DNA of 64,000 nt from Tsuneonella dongtanensis (GTDB taxonomy: Bacteria; Pseudomonadota; Alphaproteobacteria; Sphingomonadales; Sphingomonadaceae), in assembly GCF_001698205.1 (NCBI RefSeq), contig NZ_CP016591.1, positions 620,001-684,000 of the forward strand, read 5' to 3'. The notes beneath the pieces were generated by a model, which was given only the letters and a program-made list of their open reading frames with translations, was not told the origin of the DNA and searched no databases. A program made the translations under genes and the position numbers. Of the stretch, positions 14,460 through 16,435 are shown piece by piece; the first letter of the stretch is position 1; every line of letters begins with the position of its first letter.

Positions 14460-14861
14460 ATGCGCAAGATCGCCCTCGTCGCCCTTTCGTGCTCCTTGCT
14501 CGCCGCGTGCGGCAGCGGCGGCATCCTCAACCGCGAGCGGCCCGACGAGTTCGCCGTGCAGCGCCAGGCGCCGCTGGTGGTCCCGCCCGATTTCTCGCTG
14601 ACTCCGCCCGCCCCCGGTGCCCCGCGCCCGACCGAAGGCACCGCGTCAGAGCAGGCGCTCGATGCGCTGTTCGGTGGCCCGGCCGCGCGCAGCCAGGTCG
14701 AAACGAGCGCGCTCGACCGCGCCGGCGTCGCCGAGCCGGGCATCCGCACCGCGGTGGGCGATCCGCTGACCAACACGGTCGCCAAGGGCCGCGTGACCCG
14801 CGACATCATCGCCGCGCCGGAAGGCGACGGTCAGGGTGCTTCGGCCGTTATTCCGGGTTGA
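14460..14861 (+). CDS. bamF: DUF3035 lipoprotein, BamF-type subunit of the outer-membrane assembly machine
   Basis: A 133-residue lipoprotein with signal MRKIALVALSCSLLAACG; the lipobox cysteine is at residue 17 or 18. The mature part is proline-rich and low in hydrophobics (PLVVPPDFSLTPPAPG at about 40-55), as in the alphaproteobacterial DUF3035 family, described in Caulobacter as BamF associated with the BAM complex. A TTG at 14451 is in frame, but the ATG at 14460 gives the normal lipoprotein signal. It sits 5 bases after lspA and ends the forward run. The family call rests on composition and context and is less firm than its neighbours. Confidence 0.78.
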   Translation: MRKIALVALSCSLLAACGSGGILNRERPDEFAVQRQAPLVVPPDFSLTPPAPGAPRPTEGTASEQALDALFGGPAARSQVETSALDRAGVAEPGIRTAVGDPLTNTVAKGRVTRDIIAAPEGDGQGASAVIPG

Positions 14862-14881
14862 AGACCCGGATTAACTGATTT

Positions 14882-15137
14882 TTGGTTTTCCGAACGCGCC
14901 TCCGCGCGTCCGGTCCTCGGTGCTGATCGCTCCACTTCGTTTCGCGGCACCTGCGGGCGGCCGTTCGGCCTTGCGGCGCGCTGGTCGCGCGCCGTGCTCT
15001 AGCGACATCAATGACGCGAGAGACGGTCGGCGACCAGCCGACCGCAAGCGCGACCGCGCGTCCGCAGCGGCTCCGTAGCAAAGCGGAGGAAACAGCCGCG
15101 AGGACGAAGGCGCGGAGGCGCCTTCGAAAAACAAGAG
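14882..15137. repeat. Long imperfect palindrome of paired hairpins with covarying stems
   Basis: The region between the convergent bamF and CNNM genes is a large palindrome centred near 15009. Each arm holds three matched hairpins. In the left arm they are 14894-14909 (loop CTCC), 14959-14970 (loop GTTC) and 14975-14993 (stem GGCGCGC, loop TGGTC). In the right arm they are 15106-15125, 15048-15059 and 15025-15043 (stem GGTCGGC), read on the other strand. The loops of two hairpin pairs are identical between arms and the third differs by one base, while stem sequences differ by compensating changes. All three pairs are symmetric about the same centre to within one base. Confidence 0.85.
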
Positions 15138-15142
15138 TCAGC

Positions 15143-16435
15143 TCAAACCGACACAGCGATCAGCTTGTCGATCTTGCGTCCGTCCATGTCGACCACCTCA
15201 ATCCTCCAGCCCTGGTCGACGAAGCTTTCGCCCTCGTCGGGCAGCTTCTTGAGGTGCCACAGCACATAGCCCGCGGCGGTCGCGAATTCGTGGTCTTCGG
15301 GCAGGTCGATCGCCAGGCGGTCGGCCATCTCGTCGACGGGCAGCGCGCCCGAGATTAGCAGGCTGCCGTCGTCGCGCTCGACGATCGTGGGCGCCTCGCC
15401 GAGATCGCTGTCGGACGCGAAGTTGCCGACGATGGCGGTCAGCAGGTCGACCGGCGTCACGATGCCCTCGAGGTGGCCGTATTCGTCGTGGACCATCGCC
15501 ATCGCCACTTCGGCCTGCTGCAACGTGCGCAAGGCGTCCATCGCGTCGAGCTGGTCGGGGATGATCTCGGGCTTCTTCATCAGGCGCGTAAGATCGACGG
15601 TGCGCCCGGCAAGCAGTTCGCCGAGCACTTCGCGTACCTTGACGACCCCGAGGATGCGATCGGGCGAGCCCTCGGCCACCGGCAGGAGCGAGTGTGGGCT
15701 GGCGTCGATCCGTGCGCGCAGGTCGACCTCGGGCGCGTGGAGGTCGAGCCAGTCGAGCTCGGTGCGCGGAGTCATCAGCGCGCGGACCGGCCGCTCGGCC
15801 AGCTTGACCACGCCGGCCAGGATCTCGCTCTGCCCGCTTTCGATGATGCCGGAGTGCGTGGCCTCGGCAAAGATCATGTGCAGCTCTTCGGCGGTCACGT
15901 TGGACTGACCCGCGGGGCGCACGCCCATCAGCCGGATGAGCAGGGATGACGACACGTCGAGCAGCCACACGATCGGCGCGGCCACCTTGGCAAGGAATGC
16001 CATCGGCGGTGCGGCAGCCAGTGCGATCGGCAGCGCCGCACGCAGCGCGATCTGCTTCGGCACGAGTTCGCCGACGACGAGGCTGAGATAGGTCGTCACC
16101 GCGATCACCGCGGCGAAGCCGACCTCGGGCGCGAACTCCTCGGGCACCCCGAGTGCTGCCAGTCGCTCGCCCACCGGTCCGCCAAGGCTCGACCCGGAAT
16201 AGGCGCCCGCGATAATGCCGACGAGGGTGATGCCGATCTGGACGGTCGAGAGGAACTTCCCCGGGTCGGCGGCGAGCGAGAGTGCTATCTTCGCCGCCTT
16301 GCTGCCGCGATCGGCGGCGCCTTTCAGGCGGGCGGGACGCGCCGACACGATCGCCAGCTCGCTCATCGCGAACAGGCCGTTGAGCACGATCAGCCCGGCA
16401 ATGATGAGAAGGTCGGTCCAGGGAAAAGGGGTCAC
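15143..16435 (-). CDS. Hemolysin-family CNNM/CBS membrane protein (CorC/HlyC type)
   Basis: A 430-residue inner-membrane protein in the order CNNM (DUF21) domain with about four hydrophobic segments, two CBS domains, then the C-terminal CorC_HlyC domain. Landmarks are LNGLFAMSELAIVSAR (18-33), VVGELVPKQIA (about 119-129) and MVHDEYGHLEGIVTPVDL in the second CBS. Members are linked to magnesium and cobalt efflux, despite the hemolysin name. It starts with GTG at 16435. The 3' end abuts the long palindrome. The transported ion is not deducible here. Confidence 0.92.
   Translation of the reverse strand: MTPFPWTDLLIIAGLIVLNGLFAMSELAIVSARPARLKGAADRGSKAAKIALSLAADPGKFLSTVQIGITLVGIIAGAYSGSSLGGPVGERLAALGVPEEFAPEVGFAAVIAVTTYLSLVVGELVPKQIALRAALPIALAAAPPMAFLAKVAAPIVWLLDVSSSLLIRLMGVRPAGQSNVTAEELHMIFAEATHSGIIESGQSEILAGVVKLAERPVRALMTPRTELDWLDLHAPEVDLRARIDASPHSLLPVAEGSPDRILGVVKVREVLGELLAGRTVDLTRLMKKPEIIPDQLDAMDALRTLQQAEVAMAMVHDEYGHLEGIVTPVDLLTAIVGNFASDSDLGEAPTIVERDDGSLLISGALPVDEMADRLAIDLPEDHEFATAAGYVLWHLKKLPDEGESFVDQGWRIEVVDMDGRKIDKLIAVSV

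Follow-up and report, generated by a model that had tools for sequence, protein, structure and literature searches.

A palindromic element of Tsuneonella dongtanensis is one copy of a dispersed family of four-hairpin repeats

A 256-base palindrome situated between two genes of Tsuneonella dongtanensis is one member of a repeat family whose copies are scattered through the genomes of Tsuneonella and related bacteria. The family is best read as a new non-autonomous repeat, similar to REP elements and MITEs, that spreads by copying and recombination. Here, we describe the architecture of the element, the distribution of its copies, and the evidence that bears on whether it is maintained as DNA or as RNA.

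Results

An inverted pair of units, each with four hairpins

The window analyzed here, a stretch of 64,000 nt, belongs to a 3.0-Mb genome assembled as a single contig. A preliminary description made from its letters had drawn attention to a palindrome with three symmetric hairpin pairs. The palindrome is real: aligned with its own reverse complement, 14875-15141 shows identity at 196 of 270 positions, and a repeat search returned outer arms of 28 nt (14885-14912 and 15105-15132) with 86% complementarity. Folding of both strands, the check the preliminary description proposed, gave energies far below those of shuffled sequences (z = −9.0 for one strand and −8.3 for the other; none of 100 shuffles was as good). 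The hairpin pairs number four rather than three, the additional one being 14919-14951 with 15067-15099.

The palindrome consists of an inverted pair of a unit of about 115 nt and, with its T-rich leads, spans 14877-15139. Conserved linkers join the four hairpins of each unit, which reads in order T-rich lead, hairpin 1 (loop CTCC), TCCTC linker, bulged hairpin 2, TGCGGGC linker, hairpin 3, TTG linker, and hairpin 4 (loop TGGTC). In the left unit (+ strand), the lead (14877-14890), which is the conserved start of the family, lies directly 3' of the stop codon (14859-14861) of a DUF3035 lipoprotein-like gene (14460-14861, + strand; PF11233, E = 7.7e-18). It is followed by hairpin 1 (14891-14912), which contains a single A.C mismatch; hairpin 2 (14919-14951), GGTGC...GCACC with a degraded inner part; hairpin 3 (14959-14970), GGCC GTTC GGCC; and hairpin 4 (14974-14994), with stem GGCGCGC. 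The center between the units (14995-15023) is itself an imperfect inverted repeat (CTCTAGCG...CGCGAGAG). Beyond it, the right unit (− strand) comprises hairpin 4 (15024-15044), with stem GGTCGGC; hairpin 3 (15048-15059), GCGC GGTC GCGC; hairpin 2 (15067-15099), GCGGC...GCCGC with inner part TCCG/CGGA; hairpin 1 (15105-15126), GAAGGCGC CTCC GCGCCTTC; and a T-rich lead (15127-15139) directly 3' of the stop codon (15143-15145) of a CNNM/CBS/CorC_HlyC transporter-like gene (15143-16435, − strand; PF01595, E = 9e-47).

These features bear out most particulars of the preliminary description, including the different hairpin 4 stems around a common TGGTC loop, the CTCC loop in both arms, the third loop that differs by one base (GTTC versus GGTC), and the location between two convergent gene ends, DUF3035 (+) at 14861 and CNNM (−) at 15143. 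Its statement that the stems always keep pairing is mostly correct, the exceptions being the A.C mismatch of the left outer hairpin and the degraded inner part of left hairpin 2.

Dispersal of the unit family

The covariance model R1 is based on set A1, an alignment of the 32 units that remained of 34 prepared unit references after one duplicate and one divergent copy were dropped. R1 matches the T. dongtanensis genome 14 times at E ≤ 0.1, 11 of these below 1e-5, and finds matches at E ≤ 0.01 in 11 of 11 genomes of the genus (1-13 per genome). Searches of 98 relatives and of 289 genomes drawn from the class used stricter filters and scored 37 and 12 candidates per genome, respectively, so their counts are lower bounds. 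At E ≤ 1e-6 under these filters, at least 27 of the 98 relatives are positive. These 27 all belong to the 59 genomes from the family of T. dongtanensis, and the 39 genomes that represent other families of the order gave no match; one further relative (G006) joins the positives under laxer filters. The class sample contains at least four positive genomes, three from the same family and one (G292, 320 contigs) from another. The two G292 units examined (L238 and L240, each around 1501-1595) represent a variant whose first hairpin is longer; wider spread, transfer, and contamination are all possible explanations of their presence there. Copy number at E ≤ 1e-5 reaches 49 in G024 and 36 in G026.

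BLAST at E ≤ 0.001 returned matches in 34 of the 98 relatives. Two genomes of other families (G067 and G088) were rejected as carriers; their BLAST matches are just 29-34 nt long, and R1 gives no confirmation. A blastn search of plasmid and phage records with one unit as query found no match. Two further sets of units were compiled: A2, a non-exhaustive selection of 118 matches at 78 loci from the BLAST and model matches, and A3, the 90 matches listed for G024 and G026.

Some loci show additional arrangements. A variant unit occurs in four tandem copies, spaced by about 155 bases, at L019 1566-2135 (G014). In four Tsuneonella genomes, inverted pairs (L060, L048, L079, and L089) adjoin what is apparently one and the same ARAGORN-called tRNA-Ala; the corresponding spot in T. 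dongtanensis (L038) gives a weak tmRNA score in Rfam, below the gathering score.

Matching sites in related species

The CNNM gene is present in 37 of 60 genomes, and 20 of the 30 loci listed were examined at this site. Six carry an inverted pair (G000, G008, G010, G012, G005, and G019, the last two damaged), a seventh (G026) has, by eye, an inverted pair whose second unit is a variant, and remnants are found in G009 and, by eye, in G025. No unit is evident in six genomes in which the CNNM-DUF3035 neighborhood is conserved (G001, G002, G003, G004, G006, and G014); in the remaining five (G007, G028, G016, G018, and G024), the gene next to CNNM differs. With pairs in several species and none in six relatives, the element is neither universal at this site nor restricted to the species of the window. 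At the CNNM-DUF3035 site, the hairpin 1 types have changed places between arms and between species (G000, G008, G010, and G005; by eye).

Judged by their flanks, three other sites are apparently orthologous as well: S1 in four species, in all of which it lies downstream of one gene, and S2 and S3 in three species each. At all three, as in the CNNM-DUF3035 gap, stems differ between species yet are mostly paired. The element is retained from species to species at these conserved sites, with turnover of its stems. Sites held in common by different species imply that the element is stable at least there, and they could also mean that it has a function for the host.

Placement of units beside genes

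Gene context was assigned with a simple codon-usage gene caller and ARAGORN rather than from curated annotation; on this basis, both neighbors are known for 172 of 180 distinct units, which occupy 66 tandem, 53 convergent, and 6 divergent gaps (125 in total). The gaps of at least 30 nt in the window are 17 tandem, 2 convergent, and 11 divergent, a base rate taken from these 64 kb alone. Units whose lead-side gene runs toward them begin close behind its stop codon, at a median distance of 7 nt, with 87 of 124 no more than 25 nt away; where the lead-side gene runs in the opposite direction, the median rises to 59 nt, and 11 of 48 units are this close. A preference for the same gene-end placement has been published for REPs (PMC3733652).

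Neighboring units are mostly inverted with respect to each other: among 48 pairs, 40 are +-, 6 are --, 2 are ++, and none is -+. Hairpin 4 faces inward on both sides of the inverted pairs, whose median length of 255 bases (range 172-349) is near the 256 bases first reported for the window's palindrome; such pairs occupy 16 of the 53 convergent gaps. In tandem gaps, both orientations of single units are represented (27 sense and 16 antisense, p = 0.13), the lean toward sense being a weak hint of a role in transcripts.

The 5' border of 35 of 182 units contains GANTC, which in G026 is mostly GAGTC directly before the T-rich lead (for example, at L152, L160, and L184). GANTC is the CcrM methylation motif. 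Since 23 of the 35 fall in G026 (23 of its 38 units, compared with 12 of 144 in other genomes), the GANTC border is mainly a feature of that lineage.

Location between convergent gene ends had suggested a two-way intrinsic terminator common to both genes; at the CNNM stop, a weak hairpin stands before the right unit's lead. The layout speaks against this option: the T tracts precede, rather than follow, the outer hairpins on each strand, and a terminator scan of the region found one site where shuffled sequences give 0.7. For these two reasons, the terminator is disfavored, and we regard it as very improbable. We also considered whether units target existing terminators, and rejected the idea; hairpins of at least five pairs before the lead occur at chance level (20 of 91 units versus 17.5 ± 3.7), which likewise offers the terminator reading no enrichment. 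Hairpins of at least six pairs before the leads of the same 91 units, all close after a co-oriented gene, are somewhat enriched (16 versus a mean of 10.1 and a maximum of 15 in 30 rounds of shuffling), a point in favor of termination.

Stems change on both sides

The preliminary description had staked its reading on the existence of other copies and on covariation in excess of chance. Both are clearly present. Besides the many copies described above, the 32 aligned units form standard pairs in 92.3% of 950 cells, and 20 of 30 base pairs have changed on both sides. Their covariation score is 0.443, as against 0.132 ± 0.010 in shuffles that ignore relatedness (0 of 500) and at most 0.077 in slid-partner frames, which keep relatedness but favor a structure derived from the same sequences. 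Loops and linkers are conserved across genera.

The same pattern is seen within a single genome. Among 17 standard-class copies hand-picked from the 36 matches in G026, pairwise comparisons of stem pairs (comparisons, not events) gave 474 two-sided and 52 one-sided differences when the inner stem of hairpin 2 and the outermost pair were left out; the inner stem of hairpin 2 gave 14 two-sided and 74 one-sided differences. Difference rates in the G026 copies are 0.123 at unpaired positions outside the lead and 0.076-0.184 in stems. Hairpin types occur in mixed combinations, with four-gamete patterns for hairpins 1-2, 1-3, 1-4, and 2-4 and none for 2-3 and 3-4. These patterns are most simply read as an exchange of entire hairpins among copies, in preference to recurrent identical change. 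Stems would then change on both sides at once because recombination between copies swaps entire hairpins. The earlier proposal that compensating changes reflect selection acting on the fold of a nucleic acid is plausible. That nucleic acid appears to be DNA, and an exchange of entire hairpins could also have produced such changes.

G.T and A.C in the stems

Under selection on one RNA strand, G.U pairs would be expected to outlast A.C mismatches, and DNA hairpins show little such difference. Departures of the two kinds are equally frequent, with 74 G.T and 74 A.C in 3,938 stem cells from 180 distinct units (G.T share 0.50, bootstrap 0.42-0.57); hairpin 1 entered this count without its two outermost pairs and hairpin 2 without its inner stem. 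By unit, G.T is in excess in 32 and A.C in 40 (sign p = 0.41). Inclusion of the outer hairpin 1 pairs changes the count to 122 G.T versus 93 A.C (182 units). Counted by itself, the inner hairpin 2 stem contains 98 G.T and 17 A.C, 79 of the 98 G.T falling at one pair. Helices with exactly one departure show 29 G.T versus 62 A.C, the latter swollen by one terminal pair (18) and by one position common to similar stems (14). As a control, 19 tRNAs in the examined loci gave 13 G.T versus 1 A.C in 228 cells, counted by position in replacement of an ARAGORN-bracket count of 22:0. The parity in the units speaks against RNA folding as the main constraint on the stems.

Rfam at gathering score has no match at the element of the window or at the units of 15 loci. 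A Twister-sister match below threshold (26.4 bits versus a gathering score of 34, E = 0.16) overlaps a unit at L032 on the opposite strand; the other sub-threshold matches (E ≤ 1) lie beside or away from units. The structured RNA suggested in the preliminary description is thus disfavored, because G.T is no commoner than A.C and because Rfam gives no match at gathering score. One form of it deserves separate mention, in which the unit is co-transcribed with the preceding gene and its hairpins either stabilize the end of the transcript or serve as a binding site for a protein or small RNA. The short distance of sense units past the stop codon, the pairs in convergent gaps, the strong fold and covariation, and the retention of the element at matching sites in several species are all consistent with such a 3' UTR RNA. 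Against it stand the equal G.T and A.C counts, so different from the 13:1 of tRNAs, the occurrence of single tandem-gap units in both orientations, the Rfam result, and the six relatives that have both of the same neighbors and no unit between them. On balance, we consider it unlikely.

The pairing seems either to be under constraint in DNA hairpins or to be rewritten one hairpin at a time; the G.T and A.C count fits both. In the second case, the palindromes would be selfish or neutral, and hairpin-templated repair (quasi-palindrome correction) together with gene conversion would restore one arm using the other as template, with no selection on the fold. Parity of G.T and A.C, the dominance of two-sided differences even within one genome (474 versus 52), and the exchange between species of the hairpin 1 types of the two arms at the CNNM-DUF3035 site, seen by eye, are what such rewriting would produce. 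However, correction alone leaves the cross-genus conservation of loops and linkers unexplained, and the hairpins have kept their identity rather than fusing into a single long perfect palindrome. We give this explanation a low probability, equal to that of the 3' UTR RNA.

Evidence concerning mobility

Movement was not observed directly, and dispersal and genome-specific expansions are the basis on which we infer it. Many of the G026 copies, among the matches listed, share the border GAGTCC and a common center. No target duplication is visible in 40 inverted pairs, whose shared border words average 3.42 versus 3.84 in re-paired controls, but the copies may be old, and their borders are uncertain. 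The compared relatives offered no clean empty site. A comparison of G003 with G004 was set aside, G003 having no units at the G004 site and being too diverged for exact borders to be placed. G001 and G004 were rejected as an insertion pair; their flanks are 96% identical, but the length difference lies inside the element, where G001 has only the lead, hairpin 1, linker, and a stub and G004 has two tandem units. Single units or fragments may be decay products, the short G001 form being a possible example.

Mobilization by a RAYT was likewise rejected. PF01797 exceeds its cut-off in 10 of 60 genomes and in none of the 21 with model matches, and the best PF01797 score in T. dongtanensis is sub-threshold (17 bits versus a cut-off of 23). 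One genome (G015) has a RAYT together with a single weak BLAST match to the element (E = 7.6e-4). Our search yielded no candidate transposase for the unit family. Of the three options raised initially, a mobile palindromic repeat is the best fit given the many dispersed copies, although movement itself was not seen.

Relation to known repeat families

CGTC-tagged REPs, as described by Di Nocera et al. (2013, PMC3733652), are single stem-loops of 20-40 bp with 8-9 bp stems that start with A-T, an unpaired CGTC, and mostly a CCA tail; they are common in alphaproteobacteria, including sphingomonads, and have no dedicated transposase according to that account. The unit family resembles them in comprising dispersed palindromes that form inverted dimers (in CGTC REPs, sometimes of unlike partners) and lie near 3' ends, within 20 bp in convergent gaps in the case of CGTC REPs (PMC3733652). 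Unlike CGTC REPs, the unit measures about 115 nt and has four hairpins, and C-G and G-C pairs open its outer stem: in hairpin 1, the two terminal pairs are predominantly CG (107 of 176) and GC (143 of 171). The lead beside hairpin 1 is T-rich and lacks CCA. CGTCC follows hairpin 1 in many units, its C being paired in the stem, and ATCC also occurs.

Separately, a second dispersed repeat (GTCATTGCGAGGAGCGNAGCGACGCGGCAATCCA) is found beside units or at their site and resembles published CGTC REPs in its AT stem start and CCA tail. Its loci are L122 and L123 (the gap after the CNNM gene in G001 and G004) and L145, L157, L195, L200, and L209 (G024).

REPINs are described by Bertels and Rainey (2011, PMC3116915) as inverted doublets in extragenic DNA with compensatory changes on both sides of the hairpin. 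Compensatory change is thus already in print for REPINs in that source, and this part of our observations is not new. The unit family shares the inverted doublet arrangement (40 of 48 neighboring pairs +-, none -+) but differs in having no RAYT (PF01797) in 21 element-bearing genomes and a much larger unit, with four hairpins per side. Unlike the GTAG REP, a palindrome of 20-40 bp ended by an unpaired GTAG, the unit is bounded by its T-rich lead and hairpin 4.

BOX elements of Streptococcus pneumoniae, which combine boxA, a variable number of boxB, and boxC, with target duplications reported and some copies expressed, are like the unit family modular small interspersed repeats with a strong fold, as far as they are characterized in PMC3049150. 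The unit family differs from them in having four hairpins per unit, in being G+C-rich, and in that target duplication was not seen. Terminal inverted repeats (the 28-nt, 86% complementary arms of the window's copy) make it MITE-like; no target duplication is visible, in copies that may be old. ERIC and RIME, intergenic imperfect palindromes of about 100-130 bp that occur in other bacterial groups and have no known transposase, are similar by description only.

The passages of the RepRanger report that concern Erythrobacter cryptus (PMC12306157) count REP-like hairpins and name no family. We found no description of the unit family in the open-licence PMC literature; among repeat databases, the comparison covered Rfam. 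On the features tested, the family does not fit the definitions of REPINs and CGTC REPs, nor, by its layout, that of a terminator.

Discussion

Taken together, our observations lead us to conclude that the element probably consists of two inverted copies of a dispersed palindromic DNA repeat of the non-autonomous kind. The hairpins would form in single-stranded DNA or in extruded, cruciform DNA, and copies would spread by copying through this hairpin-forming state, presumably with an enzyme supplied in trans. Loops and linkers would be kept, stems would be free to vary so long as they remain paired, and recombination between copies would trade whole hairpins. Copies may survive mainly past stop codons, where they are least harmful; if so, the position between convergent genes is tolerated rather than designed. 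We tentatively put forward a more specific possibility, which we hold with considerably less confidence: that these repeats constitute a class recognized by DNA hairpin geometry instead of stem sequence. In such a class, the four hairpins would be fixed, their loops and linkers conserved, and their stems almost free to vary; whole hairpins would be traded as modules among dispersed copies, and a putative non-RAYT enzyme that works on DNA in single-stranded or cruciform form would move or maintain them.

It is often assumed that palindromic intergenic repeats act as RNA. The count of G.T versus A.C provides a cheap test of whether a fold is maintained at the level of RNA or DNA, and in the unit family it points to DNA. 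In addition, dozens of copies allow the evolution of stems, loops, and linkers to be tracked both within one genome and at one site across species, which bears on how REP-like elements spread without a transposase.
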